Below are positions 32,303-43,321 of a stretch of DNA of 64,000 bases, piece after piece. Positions within the stretch are counted from its first letter, which is position 1; each line of letters opens with the position of its first letter. This DNA is from Melanopsichium pennsylvanicum. Taxonomy: Eukaryota > Basidiomycota > Ustilaginomycetes > Ustilaginales. The notes beneath the pieces are model-generated. The model saw nothing but the letters and a program-made list of their open reading frames with translations, was not told the DNA's origin and searched no databases. The position numbers and the translations under genes were made by a program. The DNA lies in contig OAPG01000012.1 in NCBI GenBank assembly GCA_900208305.1, positions 1-64,000 of the forward strand, given 5' to 3'.

Positions 32303-33616
32303 TGTCAGCGGTCGCGTGCCAGAGATCCAAATTCCCGTGAGAAAACGCGACTCGCCGGATTTCAGTGAGTTCCGGCGGTTAAGCGTGGCCTCAACGGATA
32401 TCGAAGAGAATCCCGCGAGTGGCGATCTCTCGACGGATATCGGCTGACCGCTGGTGACACTCCGTACAGAGGTAACGCGGCAAGCTCGGACGGGGTACTC
32501 GGTCGACGCGAGTGTCACGACGTTGACAGGATACTGCTGGTGGCTGGTTAGACCTCAGCCGTCGTTGCTGGTGGGGATATGAGGGACTGGTTGTGGTGCC
32601 AGGCCCGCGGTTGAGATTCCGCCTGTAGTTGAAGTGCTACAGCGTCGATTGGGGTGTCGACGACGTCTATATGTTGTTCTCCGTTCACCGACGGGGACAC
32701 AGACTATATGGATCGCAATGAATGGTATTGCGATGTGCGACGTGTGAAGAGTATGATAAGTACGACGTACTGATAACTATGTGTGACTGAGATATAAGAT
32801 AGAGTGGATGAGCTTCCGCTCATCCGATAGCGGGGAACAGAGTATTTATATATATGTATTGTGTGCGAGGTCCATCGGTACTGTACGACCTGCGTGCGTC
32901 AAGCTTGGACCCCCGCACGATAAGACTGCCCCTAGTCCTTTGGCAGGGTGCTTCCGAGCACGCCCGCGTGCTCTCTCTCCGTTGCCCCCTGGGCGTCGGT
33001 CGGCCCACGTGTCGCTCCGGCTGGCGTTGGTCGCCGCCGTCGCAGATGCTTCCCTTGCCATCGATACCTTCGATATCCGGCGAGTCACTGCCACTCGCCG
33101 AATTTCCGTGAGATCCGTCGAGACCTGCTCTCTCACTGGATTTTGTCCAATTCAACTTCTCGGTTCTGCGCTAACCTTAAATCCCATGAGCCCACCAATA
33201 TCCACCAGATCTCCCTGAGATCCGTCAAGACATGCTCTCCCACCGGATCTCAGCCGATTCAACATCTCTGGTCTGCGCAGACCTCTTCCTTGGGACCCAC
33301 TCCCGTGACACACGTGTCGTTCCGGCGTGGCGTTGGTCGCCGCCATCGCAGATGCTCCCCTTGCCATCGATACCTTTGATATCCGGCGAGTCACTGCCAC
33401 TTGCCGAATTTCCGTGAGATCCGTTGAGACCTGCTCTCTCACCGGATTTTGTCCGATTCAACTTCTTGGTCCTGCGCTAACCTTAAATCCCATGAGCCCA
33501 CCAATATCCACCAGATCTCCCTGAGATCCGTCGAGACATGCTCTCCCACCGGATCTCAGCCGATTCAACATCTCTGGTCTGCGCAGACCTCTTCCTTGGG
33601 ACCCACTCCCGTGACA
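32303..33616 (+). mobile_element. Family C solo LTR with TAGCT target duplication
   Basis: 1314 bases beginning TGTCAGCGGTCGCG and ending CCCGTGACA, with the 5-bp direct repeat TAGCT on both sides (32298-32302 and 33617-33621). TG/CA ends plus a 5-bp duplication identify an LTR insertion; no internal coding region or second LTR is present, so it is a solo LTR. It contains a TATA-like run near 32846 and a 305/306-bp tandem duplication in its 3' half. It matches the inverted, telomere-truncated copy at 147-1120. Confidence 0.85.
33006..33616 (+). repeat. 305/306-bp tandem duplication inside LTR C
   Basis: Two head-to-tail copies (33006-33310 and 33311-33616) with only a few differences. Both end in the LTR terminus sequence TCCCGTGACA, so the LTR end occurs twice. 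It could come from unequal recombination or strand slippage during reverse transcription. Confidence 0.85.
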
Positions 33617-33801
33617 TAGCTCTGGTTCCTGTTAACAGCTTCTGGCAAGTGTCCAACCAAAATTGGCTGAAAACCCACCTTTTACTGGGACTCAATACAA
33701 AACCCAATAAAACCAAGGGTTTCATCCGGACTCATTCTGAGTCCCTGTAACAGTAATCACACAATAGCGTCAATTGAATCCAAATGCCTGCAGGTTCTGC
33801 C

Positions 33802-34560: not shown

Positions 34561-34990
34561 TGTTAGTGCCTACCAACCGGAGTCCAAAGAGGGGGTGCTC
34601 GGCCCCCCTCCCGATTGAGCGATCGTCGTGATCGGGCCCCGACCGACCCTCTCCGGACCCCTCGCAGCGGAGCGGTCGGCCTGACACGATCCTCCTACCG
34701 CCCAACCGCGGCTGGCCCCTCCGTACGTAGGATACGACCGTCGGCAACCTAACATTGTAACGCCGCGGTGGGAAGTGACCGATAGTTCCTGTACCTTACC
34801 ACCCCGCCCCCGCCTGACATGAGGTTGCCTCCGGACCTCGTCGCATGTATTACTTAGTTAGCTCTATAGCAACGCAGTAGTGTGCTCTGACCCCCGACCG
34901 CCTGTGTCGCCCCGCCTACGACCTCTCCGTACCCGTAGCCTCCATCCTGGCTGTAGCCGCCCGCGGTATCTAGACCCTACAGCCTTAACA
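34561..34990 (+). repeat. Gypsy 5' LTR
   Basis: 430 bases, TGTTAGTGCC to GCCTTAACA. It differs from the 3' LTR at three positions, all C/T or G/A changes at CG dinucleotides. If the self-priming reading is right, the transcript and R region start near 34840 (GTCGCATGTA). No clear TATA box is seen upstream of that point. Confidence 0.97.
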
Positions 34991-34991
34991 T

Positions 34992-35001
34992 TACATGCGA
35001 C
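34992..35001 (+). promoter_or_regulatory. Self-priming primer-binding site
   Basis: One base after the LTR, TACATGCGAC is the exact reverse complement of GTCGCATGTA at 34840-34849 inside the LTR. No TGG-starting tRNA complement is found at the normal primer-binding position. In Tf1-type elements the 5' end of the RNA folds back on such a site to prime reverse transcription. A 10-base match at exactly this position is strong but not conclusive. Confidence 0.65.
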
Positions 35002-35029
35002 CTCCCCACGGGACGACGTCGTAACCAAG

Positions 35030-36265
35030 ATGAGTACACGCTCCAACCAACGAAACCAAACGGACGCCTCCCCCCAAGCGGAGGGAGACGCTCCCACCAT
35101 CTCCCCCAACGGAGACGAGCCCGCCAGCGTCGTTGCACCCTCGGGCAAACCGCCCGCCGCCCTGACCACCTTGGTCCAAGGGCAAGTGGATATCCTGGCG
35201 CTTCTGCGTGAAACCTCTGAACAACAGCGGCGCATTACCGCTCTGCTAGAGGCCGCCTTCTTCCCCAGGGAGGATCAACCTAGACCGGAGTCTTCCCAGC
35301 ACTACCAAGGAGCAACCGCTGCCCAGGTCCCCCCGCCAACCGTAGCCCCCGTCTACGTGGAGGCCGCGCCCCGCGAGCCAGAGATTCGACTCCAGGCTCC
35401 GGAATGGGACGGCAGCCAAGACAAACTGGAGGACTTCTTGGATCAATGCAAACTCAACTTCGAGGCTAATCCCTCCAAGTTTCCGACGGATGCCCGTCGC
35501 ATCATGTTTGCCATCGGCAACATGACGGGCAAACCACGAACCCGCATTCGCAATGTGCGACAACAGGAGGGGGAGGATCCGCCCTGGATGAGCTCCTGGA
35601 GGGCCTTTTGCGCCGACCTCCGTCGCGTCCATGGCGATCCCGACCCCAGCTACACCGCACGCCTCCAACTGAATGCCCTCCGCCAGAAGGGATCAGTATC
35701 GGAGCACGCGGCGGAGTTCATGTCGCTGACGGCCAAATCGCACCTGACCGACCAGCAGCAGGCGTTGATGCTGTTTGAACAAAGCCTCCGGCCGCGCCTA
35801 CGGGAAAAGCTCACCCACGTGCCAATGACCGACATCCGTGACTTCATCAACGCCGCCATTGTCACGGAGCGCCGGATGCAGGTGATACAGGAGGCCACGA
35901 CAAGACCCACGGAGTCACAGCTGCGACACCGACCGCCCCTCCCAGCCGTGACGGCCAAACAAGAGCCCCCGGAGGGACCCCGCAAAATGGAACGACCTCC
36001 ACTACCGGCCAAGGACCCTACGCGTGATGCGGCAGAACGCCTCCGCCAGCACCGACGGACCAACGGGCAGTGCTTTGGCTGCGGTGGCAGCGACCATTTG
36101 GCCCGTGACTGCCCGAAGGCGCCCCAAACACAAAATCTCCGGGCACACGCTATTTCATTCGACAACAATTCCGGGACTATACTCGTCAACCCCATGGATG
36201 ACGGGTCAGCCTCCAACCCCGACAGTGACCTATCGGATTCGGAGGATCCCCCGGAGGGAAACTAA
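35030..36265 (+). CDS. gag: Gypsy gag
   Basis: 411 residues from the ATG at 35030, the first after the LTR; the frame also reads back into the LTR. A capsid-type retrotransposon gag domain occupies the middle (EWDGSQDKLEDFLDQCKLNF and following helices). A CCHC zinc knuckle (CFGCGGSDHLARDCP) for RNA binding is near the C-terminus. It ends in an acidic tail and a TAA (36263-36265) that directly follows the slippery heptamer. It forms the particle shell in the cytoplasm; most ribosomes would stop here. Confidence 0.95.
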   Translation: MSTRSNQRNQTDASPQAEGDAPTISPNGDEPASVVAPSGKPPAALTTLVQGQVDILALLRETSEQQRRITALLEAAFFPREDQPRPESSQHYQGATAAQVPPPTVAPVYVEAAPREPEIRLQAPEWDGSQDKLEDFLDQCKLNFEANPSKFPTDARRIMFAIGNMTGKPRTRIRNVRQQEGEDPPWMSSWRAFCADLRRVHGDPDPSYTARLQLNALRQKGSVSEHAAEFMSLTAKSHLTDQQQALMLFEQSLRPRLREKLTHVPMTDIRDFINAAIVTERRMQVIQEATTRPTESQLRHRPPLPAVTAKQEPPEGPRKMERPPLPAKDPTRDAAERLRQHRRTNGQCFGCGGSDHLARDCPKAPQTQNLRAHAISFDNNSGTILVNPMDDGSASNPDSDLSDSEDPPEGN

Positions 36266-36300
36266 GGGTCGATGGGTTCCTTCGGTCCGAACCCATCGAC
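36256..36300 (+). promoter_or_regulatory. -1 ribosomal frameshift signal between gag and pol
   Basis: GGGAAAC at 36256-36262, read as G GGA AAC in the gag frame, directly before the gag stop. Then 5 bases, then a perfect 12-base-pair hairpin (36268-36279 with 36289-36300) with a 9-base loop. Loop bases TCGGTCC (36282-36288) can pair with GGACCGA at 36350-36356, allowing a pseudoknot. The pol frame is open from 36229 and overlaps gag by 37 bases in the -1 frame. The same heptamer is used by sushi-ichi/PEG10-type gag-pol genes. Confidence 0.9.
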
Positions 36301-37702
36301 AACCTAAGCCAGCTCCGGGTGCTCGCCGCAGCATTCTGGGCAGCCCACCGGACCGACACTCCCGTCGTGGAGCAAGAGGGATCCGTTCTCCGGATCCATC
36401 GACACCCTACCTTACCAACCTACGAATGCTTGGTAAGCGTCGGCGACACGCAAGGCCTTGCCTTGCTCGATACCGGCGCCACCGCCTCTTTCATTACTCC
36501 CGAAATGGTCGCAACGGCCAACATTCCTACCCACTCCCTCCGTAAATCCGTCCACGCCACATTCCTCCAGGGCATGTCGGCCGCCATCAGTCGCCACGCG
36601 GCGGTGGATATCATCATCAACAACCACTGCATCACCTCACGCCACCGACTCTTCATCACCCCCATGACCTCCCACGACGTGCTGTTGGGGATGGATTGGA
36701 TCGAGGCCGCCAGGCCGGAGCCAAACTATACCCTCCGTACGTGGGACCTCCGGGTCCCCCACACCGTCACGGTGCCCTCCAACCCCAAAATCGAAAAGAA
36801 CGAACTCCACAACTTGGTCGGCCGGCGACAGCTGGTCTCCACTGAGGAGGACCTGCTGGTCCTCCCAGAACCGGAAGAGGAGCTACTGCCCCTCCGAGCT
36901 TTCGCGACCGACCTCGCCGTCCTACCGCCAGAGTACCGCGAGTACGCCGACGTCTTCGACGCCGAGAGGGCCGACCAATTGCCTCCCCACCGCCCACACG
37001 ACCACGAGATCAACCTGGAGGCTGGCAAAACCCCTCCCTACGGCGCACTCTACTCCCTGTCGCACCGCAAACAAGAGGAGCTCCGGAACTACCTCCGGAA
37101 GATGCAGGCCATTGGCTTCATCCGACCGTCAAGTAGCCAAGCTGCCGCGCCCCTCCTTTTTGTACCAAAGAAGGACGGTCGTCTCCGGCTGTGTGTGGAC
37201 TACCGCGCCCTCAATGCCATCACCGTCAAGGATCGCTACCCGATCCCCCTCATCTCCGAACACCTTGATCGGCTGGCGACGGCCAAGATCTTCACTAAAT
37301 TCGACCTGAAGGGTGCCTACAACCTCCTCCGGATCGCCCCCGGCCACGAATGGAAGACCGCATTCCGCACGCGCTACGGCAGCTACAAATACCTCGTCAT
37401 GCCGTTTGGCCTCTGCAACGCTCCGGCGACCTTCCAACGGCTCATGAACCACGTGCTGTTGGATCTCTTAGACGTGTCCGTCATCGTATATCTGGACGAC
37501 ATCCTAGTCTTCTCCGACAACGAGGCCGACCACCACCACCACGTCTGCCAAGTGTTGGATCGATTACGGAAGCATCAGCTGTATTGCGCTCCGGACAAAT
37601 GCGAATTCCACACCGACTCCGTCGAGTTCCTCGGCTACCTTGTCAGTCCCGACGGCCTCTCCATGGACCCGACCAAGGTCAGTACAGTCTTGGAGTGGCC
37701 GC

Positions 37703-38690
37703 TGTCAGGGGGCGTTGTGCCAAACTCAAGCTTCGCGCCGAGATCCGCTGAAACCGTCTGTTTTAGCGTGTTTGAGATTGAGACCTGATAAGCAGGCTGG
37801 TTCTATTGTGTTTCGCTATGAGACCTGCTGCGCAACTCTTGAGCTGACTGACCACTGTGAACACTCCGTTCAGAGGTAATGCGGCTTGTCTGTGTGTTGT
37901 AAGACCTTCACGATGCACGAGTGCTCTTGATGCAAGTGTTGGTCACCGTCAGGGACTGCTTCGGATGGTCTTGAAGCTGTCGTGATAATGAATTGGCTAC
38001 GGTGGAGGTTCCGTGACCGCGGTTGAGGTTCCGCCTACAGTTGAGGTGCTGTAGTGTCAGTGATGGTGCTGACAATCGTCGATGAAGCTTGTCTCCTTAT
38101 ACTGAGGAGAACACAGACACTGGATAGCTGCAATACCGTATGATTGCAGCTGCTGACGAGAACTATATACTGAGTAACTGATAACGACTTGTAAAGTAAA
38201 GACTGGGTTAATATAAAGTAGAGTGGATGAGTCCCGCTCCTCCACGACTGTAAAGACTGTGTTCTTATATACCTATGGCCCTCCAGGGGCTCCCCTTTGT
38301 CCGCTATGACCCTGGTACACCAGAGTACCAATGGCCACCAGAGTTTCGACGTGTCCGCGAGCTTGGGCCCCGTGCTAATCAATGCCGACTGTCATCAACT
38401 ATGACAACCACGAGCTTGGACCCCGTGTTAAACAATACCAACTGCCAGCAACCATGTCGCCCTTGAGCTTGGGCCCCGTGCTAACCAGTGCTGGCTGTCA
38501 GCAACCATGACACACACAGCGGACGGTCCTACATCATGTTGCACCCTTCCATCAGGCCTCCTGTACCAGGCGGAGGCTGTCAGAGGGCGTTGCACTGATA
38601 TCGGATGAAACCACGTGTTCTAGCGGATGTCAACCTGAAACCCGATAGAACACAGTGTTTCACCGGGTTTGAAATCCACCTCCGGTAACA
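37703..38690 (+). mobile_element. LTR family B copy 4, inserted in gypsy pol
   Basis: 988 bases, TGTCAGGGGGCG to CCGGTAACA, flanked by the exact 5-base duplication GCCGC (37698-37702 and 38691-38695). The interior is collinear with copies 1-3. A second TGTCAGAGGGCGTT start-like sequence at 38578 weakly resembles the first 100 bases, so it may be a small element with short, diverged terminal repeats rather than a plain solo LTR. CG-rich compared with copy 3, hence younger. No coding frame. Confidence 0.9.
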
Positions 38691-41001
38691 GCCGCCACCA
38701 CAGTCGATCCGACAGATCCAAGTCTTCCTCGGATTCGCCAACTTCTACCGTCGCTTCATCCGCCACTATTCTCGTGTAGCGGCCCCCCTCACCAACCTCC
38801 TGAAAGGAGGAGCCTCCGGAAAGGTAGATCTGCCCCCGGAAGCAACGGCAGCCTTCAACCGGCTGAAAGAAGCGTTCACCTCTGCCCCTATCCTCCGGCA
38901 CTTCTCCCCAACGCTCTACACCGTCGTCGAAACAGACGCGAGCGATGCTGTGGTAGCCGCCGTGCTGTTGCAGTGGCACCCACAGCCGGGCGCCGACGCG
39001 AGCGCCGAGCCCAACAGCCGCTCGCATACCCTCCATCCTGTGGCATACTGGTCGCGAAAGATGATCCCGGCGGAGAGTAACTACAAAATCCACGACAAGG
39101 AACTCCTGGCTATCGTAGACGCCTGCGGCGCTTGGAGACACTACCTCCATGGCCTCACCCGACCGTTCCTCATTTACACCGACCACCAGGCGCTCCAGTA
39201 TTTTCAGACGAAGCGACAACTCAACCGTCGCCAAGCCCGCTGGCAAGCCGACCTGGCTGAGTTCGACTTCGTCCTCCACTACCGTCCGGGTAAGGAGGCC
39301 GTCCGCCCCAACGCTCTGAGTCGCCGGCACGACTTGTTCCCCGACGGACCGTCGCGCCCAGACCCCGCCAACCAAGCCACTCTCCTCCCTGCAAACTTGT
39401 TTGCAAGGGCAGCCGGCGTACACTCCTCGGACCCCCTGCCTACGGAGTGGATCGAAACCCTCCGGAAAGCGGCCAACCTCCCCCCAAACGTTGCCGTCCG
39501 CGATGGTGTCCCGTACACCACAGAGGGTCACGTCTACCTGCCACCCCAATTACGGGACAAGGCACTCCACCTACTGCACGACCACCCTACGGCGGGACAT
39601 CCTGGCCGCAAGACGACCCTCCATCTCATGCGTCAACGTTTTTACTGGCCAACCATGGTGCAGGACACCGACAGCTATGTCGCCTCTTGCGCGGCCTGCC
39701 GAAGGGCAAAACACCCCCGTCACAAACCCCACGGCTACCTTCTCCCGTCGGTCCCTCCCGATCGGCCGTGGTCCACTATTACCATGGACCACATCACTGA
39801 CCTCCCGCCCTCCCTTGCCAACGGCACCACCTACAACTCCATTCTCGTAATCGTTGACCGCCTCACCAAGTTTGTGGTCTTCATTCCTGCAAACAAAACC
39901 GATACGGCGGAGACTTTGGCGTACCAGCTCCACCGCTACGTCTTTTCATACTTTGGCCTCCCGGACACCATTGTATCTGACCGAGGAACCACGTTTGTAG
40001 CTTCCGTTTGGACGGAACTCCTCCGGGCCCTCCGGATTAAAGGGTCTTACTCGTCGGCCTACCACCCTCAAACAAATGGCCAGACCGAGCGAGCCAACCA
40101 GACGCTAGAGTTGTTCCTCCGCTTCTATACGGCCTACGACCACAGCGACTGGGCAACCCTCCTGCCGACAGCCCAGCTCGCGCTGAACCAAAGACCGTCG
40201 GCGACCACAACCATCGCCCCGGCTATAGCTTGCTTCACATTTGCCCCTCGGGCACACCCCTCCATCCCCCCGGCCACCTCCAACGTTCCGTCGGCGGATA
40301 AAGTGCGGGTGTGCCAGGACGCCATCGCCAAAGCCAACCTTGCCGTCGCAAAGTGGTTTAACCGTCGCAGGAGCGACGTCTCGTTCCGCCGGGGGGACCT
40401 GGTGCTCCTCCGTACCAAGCACCTCCGCAGCGACCGACCCTCCCACAAGCTCTCCAACCCCCTCGCCGGCCCGTTCAAAGTCGACAAGGTGATTAGCGAC
40501 CGAGCCTACCGACTCCTCCTGCCTCCGTCGTGGAAGGTCCATCCCGTCTTTCACGTACAGATGCTGGAGCCATACCCCGACGGAGTCAGGGAGTCCAGCG
40601 ACGCCCCCCAACCAACTACTCTGGAGGACGACTACGCCAATTTCGAAGTCGAGGGCGTATTGGACTCCCGCCGCCGCGCCGGACGCCTACAGTACAAGGT
40701 CTCCTGGGTAGGGTACCCCCCAAGCTGGGTCCCGGCGGAAGACGTGGACCGCGCCCCGGATCTGGTCGCTGCGTACCACGCCGCAAACCCGACCAAGCCG
40801 GCCCCTACCCGGCGTTAGGCACGGATACGAGCGACGGTCGCCGTCAGGAGACCCCCCCGCCGGAGCCAAAACCCCTCCGGTCCCCGACCTCTGGGGTAGG
40901 AGACCCGGTCGGGCTCCCCTCACCCCCACTCCCACACACGGACACACACACACGCAAGCAACAGAAAAGAAAACAAGTGCATTCGAGGAGGGGCCCCGGG
41001 G

Positions 41002-42457
41002 CTAGTCCCTCAGGAAGCCCTCCAACCACGCCCAGACCACGTCCACCTGCTGTCGCGTGTTCTGCAACAGTTGCTGGATCTCGCTGATCCGGCGGAGCTC
41101 TCGCTCGCCGCCGGTCCTCAGCGACTCTGTCAGCAACAGCGCAGCCACGTCGGCCAGCCCCTGTTGAAATAACTCAGTCCCCTCCTGCACCCCGTGGAAG
41201 AGGGAATCGGCACGCCTTACGGCCGCACCCAGGTCCCCCAGGCCCGTAGCGGACTCCCCCGGCTGGCCTTGGGCCCGCGCCCAAGTGCGGCGCCGCTCTC
41301 GGGCAGCCTCGGCTGGACGGTCGGGGCGAGACCTAGCTCGCTTGCGAGCCGCCTCCCGCTCCCGACCCACCGCGCCCACCCGAGCCACCTCCTCCCTCAG
41401 TTCCTCCTCCTCCTCCGGGATCTCGCCAAGTGTCCTCAGCGACAACCTGACGTTGGGGTGGGGGCGGCGACGCCGACCGACCCCTCCGGACCTCCACCTC
41501 TCAAGCAAGCACGCGTAAACCCTCATTCGGAGGGGACCTTGGGCGCCGCCAAGTGGTGGGACTGTCGAGGAAAACAAAAGGAGGAACAAGAGTCAGCCGA
41601 CCACCCAGGACATCGCGACAGACGCCCGACGGAAATACTTACCGCGCATATCCGCGTCGCAGGGTTGCCCGTGCTGCCCCTGACACCGACGGCAGCGGAG
41701 ATCGCCTCCCGCCCGCTCACAGGCAACGCCGGCGCATACGCAGCCGTAGCAATCGCCCCACGTCTCGGCCCATAGCGGGGCAAGGTCTGTCGTATCGGCC
41801 ACGGAAACACAAACGTCAGTAGCGATCCCAATCAACACAGCAATGGAACAAATACTTACCATCACCAACGAGTTCCGGAGTGATCTCGATGGGAACCGAA
41901 GGACGCGACCACGGCATCGAATTCCGGGGCGCCAGGACGAGGGAAGTGTTGGTCGATGCAGAGGAAGGAATGGCCGACGGATCGGCAGACTGTTGACGCA
42001 CGGCGCGCTCGCGACGGCCCGAGTTGGCCCCCCGGGAAAGGTGAGCACGCGGGGAACGGCGCACCCCCCGGATGGGACCAGCGGAGGTCTCCGACGGCCG
42101 ATCTGTTGTAATCGAAACAAGGGGGAGGGAACAAATGTCAGTAACCCATTCCATGGCACCGACCGGTGGTTGTCAGACCCTCTGGGCCCCCCATCCACAA
42201 CCGAATCACAACGGAACCACGATCGACTCACCTCCGGAAGCGGGTAACGGTGTTGTTGTTGTTGGTGCTGTTGTTGTTGTTGCTGCTGCTGCTGTTGCCG
42301 ACGCTGCCGCCGTCGCGGACGTAGGCGATGGAGGGGGAACGGTACTGACACCGGCCGACGGGTTGTCGGCCGGGGAGTCCATGGAAGCGTCTGCTGGTGA
42401 CGACGACATTGCAAAAAAAAGACACTCCATGGAAGCGTCTGCTGGTGACGACGACAT
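41002..42457 (-). CDS. Antisense Zn2Cys6-like gene inside the gypsy element, 4 exons
   Basis: Exons on the minus strand: 42457-42232, 42102-41860, 41786-41643 and 41561-41002, giving exactly 391 codons (390 residues plus TAG). The three introns of 129, 73 and 81 bases are all phase 1, with GTGAGT, GTAAGT and GTAAGT donors, a CTGAC branch site and a CAG acceptor each. Exon 1 encodes a Ser/Ala/Thr/Pro-rich tract. Exon 3 encodes a cysteine cluster, Cys169-x2-Cys172-x6-Cys179-x8-Cys188-x2-Cys191-x7-Cys199, which fits the fungal Zn2Cys6 spacing rule. Exon 4 encodes an Arg/Glu-rich helical, coiled-coil-like tail. A TATA-like GGATATAAG lies about 65 bases upstream on the same strand. It is convergent with pol (183 bases between the stops). 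The function is unknown; a DNA-binding regulator carried by the element is the best guess. Confidence 0.8.
42410..42457 (-). repeat. 48-base duplication repeating the start codon of the antisense gene
   Basis: The sequence around the ATG of the antisense gene (MSSSPADASM) occurs twice in tandem, giving in-frame start codons at 42457 and 42409. Either could be used; both give the same downstream protein. Confidence 0.85.
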
Positions 42458-42519
42458 TGCGAAGAAAAAGAATGGGGAAGAATGGGGAAAATCGAGAAGG
42501 AAGACCCGTCGACCCCCAT

Positions 42520-42528
42520 CCTTATATC
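42520..42528 (-). promoter_or_regulatory. TATA-like element of the antisense gene
   Basis: On the minus strand GGATATAAG lies 63-71 bases before the first ATG of the antisense gene, inside the element and 230 bases from the 3' LTR. It suggests the gene brings its own promoter rather than using the LTR. Confidence 0.4.
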
Positions 42529-42760
42529 CCTCCTCGATAGCTACGCACGAGCAATGGCGCACAGTCAATTCCGCCGGTCCAAGGCATTGTGGGTGGTATT
42601 GCCTCATTGCTGCGCATCCGCGATTAAATTGCCGAGACGAGCGTCGCAACTTGTACAGAGAGGCGCCCCTGGCGCGGATTAAGGTTGAGGGAGTACAACC
42701 CCCCTCGCCCTCCCGTCCTATCAGCCGCCTGGGGACCAGTCGGCCTGAACCAGGGGGTAA

Positions 42761-43190
42761 TGTTAGTGCCTACCAACCGGAGTCCAAAGAGGGGGTGCTC
42801 GGCCCCCCTCCCGATTGAGCGATCGTTGTGATCGGGCCCCGACCAACCCTCTCCGGACCCCTCGCAGCGGAGCGGTCGGCCTGACACGATCCTCCTACCG
42901 CCCAACCGCGGCTGGCCCCTCCGTACGTAGGATACGACCGTCGGCAACCTAACATTGTAACGCCGCGGTGGGAAGTGACCGATAGTTCCTGTACCTTACC
43001 ACCCCGCCCCCGCCTGACATGAGGTTGCCTCCGGACCTCGTCGCATGTATTACTTAGTTAGCTCTATAGCAACGCAGTAGTGTGCTCTGACCCCCGACCG
43101 CCTGTGTCGCCCCGCCTACGACCTCTCCGTACCCGTAGCCTCCATCCCGGCTGTAGCCGCCCGCGGTATCTAGACCCTACAGCCTTAACA
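42761..43190 (+). repeat. Gypsy 3' LTR
   Basis: 430 bases, same ends as the 5' LTR and 427/430 identical by direct comparison. A short purine run (AGGGGG) three bases before it is the candidate polypurine tract. Followed directly by the TGTTC target duplication at 43191-43195. Confidence 0.97.
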
Positions 43191-43321
43191 TGTTCACTAT
43201 CTATAGCTTCTGGTGGTTCCACAGCCAAACTTGGCTCAAATTCCCTGTTTTGTTGTGAGTCAAATTAAAACCCAATAAAACTAAGGATTTTATCCAGTTT
43301 GGTGATTTGCGCCCTGTAACA
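43191..43321 (+). mobile_element. LTR family B copy 3, right part
   Basis: Continuation of the element that starts at 33802. It matches the last 120 bases of copy 2 (AGCTTCTGG..., AACCCAATAAAAC..., ending CCCTGTAACA). It begins with the TGTTC target duplication of the gypsy element. Confidence 0.8.

Follow-up and report, generated by a model that had tools for sequence, protein, structure and literature searches.

A conserved antisense gene with three predicted introns and a zinc-cluster-like protein in a chromovirus of the smut Melanopsichium pennsylvanicum

The window analysed here, 64,000 nucleotides from the start of contig OAPG01000012.1 of Melanopsichium pennsylvanicum (assembly GCA_900208305.1), contains a Ty3/gypsy retroelement at positions 34561-43191, with LTRs of 431 bp that show three mismatches and with TGTTC on each side (Table 1). 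Its open frames encode, in gypsy order, the capsid, protease, RVT_1, RT_RNaseH, rve, SH3_Tf2-1 and Chromo domains, all above their Pfam cut-offs. Because these domains include the C-terminal chromodomain (31.6 bits against a cut-off of 25.1), we identify the element as a chromovirus; we refer to it and its close copies as family A. The window copy carries an insertion in pol, at 37703-38690, that contains 53-bp tandem repeats, and the element copy in L053 is without it at the corresponding site. Elsewhere the inserted sequence adjoins the gag (L053) and the pol (L057) of another gypsy family, family C, and since it flanks both genes there it is probably the LTR of that family. Just upstream of the element, at 33022-33627, lie two 300-bp direct repeats that are 95% identical, with starts 306 bp apart.

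Table 1. Positions of the features of the family A element and its antisense gene in the window, with the model of the family B antisense gene from copy L058.
Feature	Position	Strand	Details
5' LTR	34561..34991	+	TGTTC (target-site duplication) directly before
Open frame with gag	34862..36265	+	Pfam Ty3_capsid and Retrotrans_gag; a zf-CCHC match falls just short of the cut-off
pol, first part: protease and reverse transcriptase	36229..37788	+	Pfam; frame continues into the insertion
Insertion in pol of the window copy	37703..38690	+	matches probable LTR of gypsy family C
pol, last part: RNase H, integrase, Tf2-1-like SH3, chromodomain	38689..40818	+	Pfam; stop at 40818
Antisense gene, exon 4	41002..41561	-	560 nt; charged tail
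Antisense gene, intron 3	41562..41642	-	GTAAGT...CTGAC...CAG, phase 1
Antisense gene, exon 3 (cysteine exon)	41643..41786	-	144 nt; C-X2-C-X6-C-X8-C-X2-C-X7-C
Antisense gene, intron 2	41787..41859	-	GTAAGT...CTGAC...CAG, phase 1
Antisense gene, exon 2	41860..42102	-	243 nt; basic stretch VRRSPRAHLSRG
Antisense gene, intron 1	42103..42231	-	GTGAGT...CTGAC...CAG, phase 1
Antisense gene, exon 1	42232..42457	-	226 nt; Ser/Thr/Ala/Pro-rich N-terminus
Predicted TATA box of the antisense gene	42518..42529	-	GGATATAAGGAT; putative function
3' LTR	42761..43191	+	3 mismatches to the 5' LTR; TGTTC directly after
Family B antisense gene (L058)	exon 1 2244-1652; intron 1651-1581; exon 2 1580-1124	antisense to element	two-exon model

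Between the stop of pol and the 3' LTR, the minus strand carries a further gene, at 41002-42457. An earlier note on this DNA had described it as four exons that join into 391 codons, separated by three phase 1 introns, each with a consensus donor, a CTGAC box and a CAG acceptor, and our reconstruction agrees with that description exactly. The exons (226+243+144+560) add up to 1173 nt, that is, 390 amino acids and a stop codon; the introns measure 129, 73 and 81 nt, and CTGAC begins 39, 33 and 35 nt from the 3' ends of introns 1, 2 and 3, respectively. The first ATG falls in a 48-bp tandem duplication, and the start region is 36 or 38 nt shorter in 12 of the 35 family A copies described below. 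A predicted TATA box (GGATATAAGGAT), identical in all 35 copies, precedes the ATG by about 70 nt and is not part of the LTR; among the six invariant runs of at least 12 in the upstream stretch it is the shortest, the five others being longer.

A search of the genome with the antisense gene gave at least 44 matches, pieces included. We fetched 40 stretches, most of which match pol and the LTR on the two flanks, and aligned 35 of them over the whole region, leaving out L046-L048 (partial or rearranged) and L044 and L045 (rearranged, not aligned). Over the aligned region L017 and L018 do not differ, and L018 was dropped from the permutation test described below and from the counts of near-fixed differences and indels. 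Both L018 and L028 were dropped from the counts of open pol, and the pol control comprised 27 of the 35 copies, or 26 without L018. Around G000:C8:509-520 kb (L047, L020 and L028) there is an inverted pair of family A elements, and fragments of the antisense gene occur there in either orientation. The stretch at C8:506408-506541 was considered as a diverged cousin and rejected, because it proved to be a fragment of a normal family A element beside other insertions.

Among the 35 aligned copies, 33 have an open spliced frame, with stops in the other two, L024 and L031. The donor GT is present in 34 copies for intron 1 and in all 35 for introns 2 and 3, and the CAG acceptors and CTGAC boxes of all three introns are present throughout. 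Variation in the donors is confined to three positions, in L011 and L021; the GT of donor 1 is missing from L011, an open copy, and another open copy, L035, is without the usual first ATG. Variable columns make up 3 of 42 in the splice signals against 63 of 241 in the rest of the introns (one-sided Fisher P=0.0035). Indels come in multiples of three in 7 of 8 exon events, the exception lying in the broken copy L024, and in 0 of 4 intron events (P=0.010); this count excludes the 36/38-nt difference in length at the duplicated start. Exon 4 has no indel in any of the aligned copies, and when it was used in a protein search of the fungus's own genome, 36 of 38 full-length matches were free of stops, with four more partial matches. 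The spacing CX2CX6CX8CX2CX7C given in the earlier note is as described, with one extra cysteine within the first X6, and both this six-cysteine spacing and all seven cysteines are intact in every one of the 35 copies, even though 14 of the 47 complete residues of the cysteine exon vary.

These copies also bear on the proposal, made in the earlier note, that a spliced gene is retained here through retrotransposition: all three introns are kept in the 35 aligned copies. Since the copies were picked for matching the full intron-bearing region, an intron-less copy would be missed by the alignment; no match split at the introns appears among the at least 44 genome matches listed. Free accumulation of stops while pol stays open, which the same note had named as the pattern that would speak against the gene, is absent: among the 27 copies with the full 3' part of pol, the antisense frame is open in 25 and the pol part in 20.

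Could an open frame of this kind be fortuitous, a long antisense frame produced by high G+C content and a pol-like codon phase and stitched together into a gene? Because family A is young, few stops are expected under neutrality, about 5 where 3 are seen, and to this extent the open frame fits such an origin. However, the five other frames average between 2.3 and 7.1 stops per copy across exons 2-4, the shifted frames of the gene's own strand having 7.0 and 6.4, compared with 0.06 premature stops in the real frame. The conservation of the splice signals and the separate result for family B, given below, also argue against chance, as does the annotation: six annotated M. pennsylvanicum records match the family A protein, and four of them share the intron 1 junction and the start of exon 4 as we modelled them. 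We therefore regard a fortuitous frame as very improbable, and treat the frame as that of a gene.

To measure selection on this frame, we added a permutation test matched by mutation class, because the Nei-Gojobori dN/dS was by itself too weak (omega 0.73, 0.52-1.04, for the family A antisense gene). Nonsynonymous (N) and synonymous (S) changes were compared with 2000 random placements matched by mutation type, with the antisense gene read from codon 26. The real antisense frame has 130 N and 87 S changes (omega 0.70, P=0.008), while its shifted frames give 1.01 and 1.49, so that the synonymous excess is peculiar to the real frame; pol, the positive control, gives an omega of 0.55. When the changes are divided by frequency, those found in a single copy give an omega of 0.52 in the antisense frame and 0.66 in pol, and those shared by several copies 0.98 and 0.44, respectively. 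Near-fixed differences between two subgroups of family A number 5 N and 5 S. The dN/dS below 1 that the earlier note had suggested looking for is thus found in family A overall and, as shown below, far more markedly in family B (0.37). The shared changes of family A look neutral, for which relaxed or shifting selection between subfamilies is a possible explanation.

Searching the genome with the RNase H region of the window returned, besides its own family, related gypsy families with full-length matches of 54-58% identity. Two of these were read beyond pol: family B, from 5 of 29 near-full-length matches (L058-L062), and family C, from one copy (L057). The RNase H region of family B is 55-57% identical to that of the window, and an antisense gene lies in the corresponding place. 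Its two-exon model (Table 1) encodes 356 amino acids in the copies without the 21-nt deletion of L058, and the four other copies are 86-91% identical to L058. The cysteine pattern C-X2-C-X6-C-X20-C-X2-C-X7-C occurs in four of the five copies, L059 being without the fourth cysteine. With 88 N and 106 S changes over the five copies, the spliced frame has an omega of 0.37, which was reached by none of 4000 permutations, and the shifted frames give 1.30 and 2.28. The mirrored plus-strand frame has an omega of 0.42 but contains 2-5 stops in every copy, and the five other frames contain 2-8 stops per copy. The exons have one indel, of 21 nt, and the intron has indels of 18, 1 and 4-5 nt; one premature stop each is found in two of the five copies, L059 among them.

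The antisense genes of families A and B are alike in position, orientation, intron signals, cysteine layout and basic stretches, and in both a TATA-like box lies 65-70 nt before the ATG (in family B, in the four copies that reach that far). Profile comparison detected no homology between the two proteins, and because its probabilities are so low (0.2, 0.1 and 3.5 percent) we do not claim a common origin for them. Family C, read from its single copy, has only about 455 bases from pol to LTR. This leaves no room for an antisense gene, and the trait may therefore be gained or lost among close relatives.

Relatives in other species were found for one of the two proteins. Among the candidates scored in our protein searches, the family A protein has no relative outside M. 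pennsylvanicum, and none of the B-type proteins of Ustilago surfaced as one. A profile of three family B proteins, in turn, matched 35 records among 7998 candidates scored: 24 from M. pennsylvanicum, ten under Ustilago names and one without a species name. MEPE_05597 agrees with the two-exon model in its length of 356 amino acids, with 90% identity over 100%. Eleven relatives have E values from 1e-53 to 2e-14, and ten of these bear the names of U. hordei, U. nuda, U. tritici or Ustilago sp. UG-2017a. The Ustilago proteins (UDID_06351, UDID_18130, NDA18_001093, UHO2_03171 and others, all uncharacterized) are clear homologs of family B, with E values down to 1e-53, and have in common with it a core around EGCMPWPSWQC..C..L and CF.SAF. 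Of the 16 rows that we aligned, five come from M. pennsylvanicum; cysteines 1 and 2 are present in 15 of 15 covering rows, cysteines 3-5 in 13 of 13 and cysteine 6 in 12 of 13. P0032 stands for 75 member sequences, which is consistent with a repeat, although several assemblies may contribute to that number. Three records, P0039-P0041, end at 'GIP' or 'GTP', where read-through of the Melanopsichium donor (CCG TAA) would stop, which suggests that Ustilago has the corresponding intron. Annotation of U. hordei genomes is described as guided by M. pennsylvanicum proteins (PMC9603552); guide proteins of this sort can shape gene models but not sequence.

The annotated records of M. pennsylvanicum itself are less uniform. 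The cysteine exon is absent from MEPE_05065, MEPE_05912, MEPE_04496 and MEPE_00722 (P0001-P0004), P0005 spans only part of exon 4, and P0006 contains the cysteine exon. In family B, P0011 and P0012 omit approximately residues 154-205, which include the first half of the cluster. These omissions (P0001-P0004, P0011 and P0012) could result from alternative splicing or from predictor error. P0006 is MEPE_01710 (L054, G000:C3:503500-510500), in which family A exons 2-3 are fused to a protein with Tudor and SNase domains; this is probably a chimera that annotation produced where a family A fragment lies, or possibly a case of an exonised element exon. P0030 (MEPE_05452) combines family B exon 1 with the family A chromodomain and likely reflects nested elements.

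The absence of the cysteine exon from four of the six family A records, together with the neutral omega (0.98) of the shared changes in family A and the presence of RNAi genes in the host, would fit a model in which the functional product is the antisense transcript, and a captured gene has left the coding signal as a relic. We find this improbable: it does not account for indels that keep the frame, for invariant cysteines and conserved splice signals, or for the strong protein-level constraint in family B and its relatives in Ustilago. We take the product to be more probably the protein. The structure of the gene, its conservation among copies, the retention of its introns in the aligned copies, and the family B gene with its Ustilago relatives are shown by the sequences themselves.

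What kind of protein is this? Zn2Cys6 proteins follow the spacing rule CX2CX6C ... CX2CX6-8C, and their clusters usually have basic residues between the second and third cysteines. The cysteine spacing of Zn2Cys6 proteins (PF00172) is alike in both families A and B, but the basic residues between Cys2 and Cys3 are missing here, and family B has a 20-residue loop as well as an intron just before Cys3. The family A protein of the window has no match at all in Pfam, Zn_clus (PF00172) included. The family B protein scores 8.8 bits against Zn_clus when whole and 16.3 bits as a 75-residue fragment, below the cut-off of 21, with the match confined to a 12-residue stretch, and no Zn_clus match at E<=1 was found among 16 B-type proteins, some of which are without part of the cluster. 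Sequence searches of Pfam and the PDB gave no useful match to a known family. The AlphaFold models are of low confidence, with mean pLDDT values of 43 for family B (P0007 with 16 sequences) and 52 for the family A cysteine exon alone, and the low-confidence B model matched no PDB fold in Foldseek at E<=0.001. The fit to Zn2Cys6 proposed in the earlier note thus agrees with the spacing in both families, but is borne out neither by Pfam nor by the fold models. Because the Zn_clus scores lie below the cut-off and the structures are of low confidence, we describe the proteins as zinc-cluster-like and do not file them in Zn2Cys6; the low confidence of the models also means that it is the motif by itself that suggests binding of zinc and of nucleic acid.

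Retroelements are normally unable to keep introns in genes that are copied through their own RNA. How, then, could a gene with three introns persist in a chromovirus? The introns of this gene are on the strand opposite to the one represented in the genomic RNA, so that packaging and reverse transcription would copy them unspliced and the gene would survive each round. Once the element is integrated, minus-strand transcription would start from the predicted TATA promoter, located just inside the 3' LTR, and the transcript would be spliced by the host. With its cysteine cluster and basic stretches, the resulting protein could attach to host chromatin or to the DNA or RNA of the element, and in this way might tune sense transcription or silencing, as HBZ does in HTLV-1. 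The family A gene would accordingly be one that is transcribed and spliced, with a product that presumably binds zinc, is located in the nucleus and regulates. Reading the sequence in this way, we think it reasonably probable that the locus is a conserved protein-coding antisense gene with three predicted introns whose product is a likely nuclear, zinc-binding regulator of its own element. Its likely role is that of an HBZ-like self-regulator made from its own promoter.

The host genome contains a Piwi-domain gene and RNA-dependent RNA polymerase genes, so that antisense RNA could feed silencing and a counter-silencing role is possible. This bears on a somewhat unlikely but still credible alternative, that the antisense protein, instead of regulating transcription, acts on the RNA or the particle of the element, for instance by chaperoning RNA or by suppressing RNAi or heterochromatin silencing. 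In a host with these genes, sense and antisense transcripts that converge could be fed into RNAi, so counter-defence would pay, and cysteine clusters with basic stretches are suited to RNA binding too. Against it, Gag already has a match to a CCHC knuckle, just below the cut-off, and the Pfam and PDB sequence searches yielded no useful known-family match. We continue to favour a regulator of the element's transcription or silencing.

A wider and more tentative reading, to which we give slightly less than an even chance, is that smut chromoviruses run an intron-bearing, HBZ-like, counter-transcribed regulator whose introns sit on the strand that is not packaged, that its proteins form two new cysteine-cluster families, one of them spanning Melanopsichium and Ustilago, and that this is the first spliced antisense regulator in a fungal retroelement. 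If this is true, the HBZ principle extends to fungal chromoviruses, and the function of an antisense accessory gene becomes testable in laboratory yeasts. The repeated 'uncharacterized proteins' in smut proteomes may likewise be retrotransposon genes, which matters for annotation.

It is instructive to compare this gene with antisense genes known from other elements. The earlier note knew of additional antisense ORFs in plant LTR elements but of no arrangement like this one. Among the papers listed by our searches of the open-licence literature we found no report of an antisense element gene in fungi, but the arrangement stands less alone than the note supposed, in view of the spliced hbz gene and the plant antisense genes. 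HTLV-1 hbz is an antisense gene that is spliced and encodes a bZIP regulator, and HBZ and APH-2, -3 and -4 (HTLV-1 to -4) are all described as products of a spliced antisense transcript at the 3' end of an integrated retroelement (PMC10186651). The same account places HBZ and APH-2 in the nucleus and has HBZ repress the 5' LTR (PMC10186651). HBZ is of the bZIP type and is expressed from a promoter in the 3' LTR, whereas the protein described here has a cysteine cluster, and its predicted TATA promoter lies outside the LTR; it also differs from the HTLV genes in its three predicted introns, its fungal host and its chromovirus element. In plants, Retand (TRP28), Grande and RIRE2 have antisense genes between pol and the 3' LTR (PMC11963269). 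The Retand gene is reported in nearly all clusters, TRP28 is predicted to bind DNA, and the Grande antisense protein is nuclear, with its own promoter driving transcription (PMC11963269). Retand belongs to a non-chromovirus plant lineage, and the main text of PMC11963269 never mentions introns, whereas the gene described here is multi-exon, lies in a basidiomycete chromovirus and, in family A, encodes a protein without a Pfam match. Thus antisense accessory genes and spliced regulators are already known from plants and retroviruses, whereas a multi-intron antisense gene with a cysteine cluster in a fungal chromovirus is not among the reports listed by our searches of the open-licence literature.
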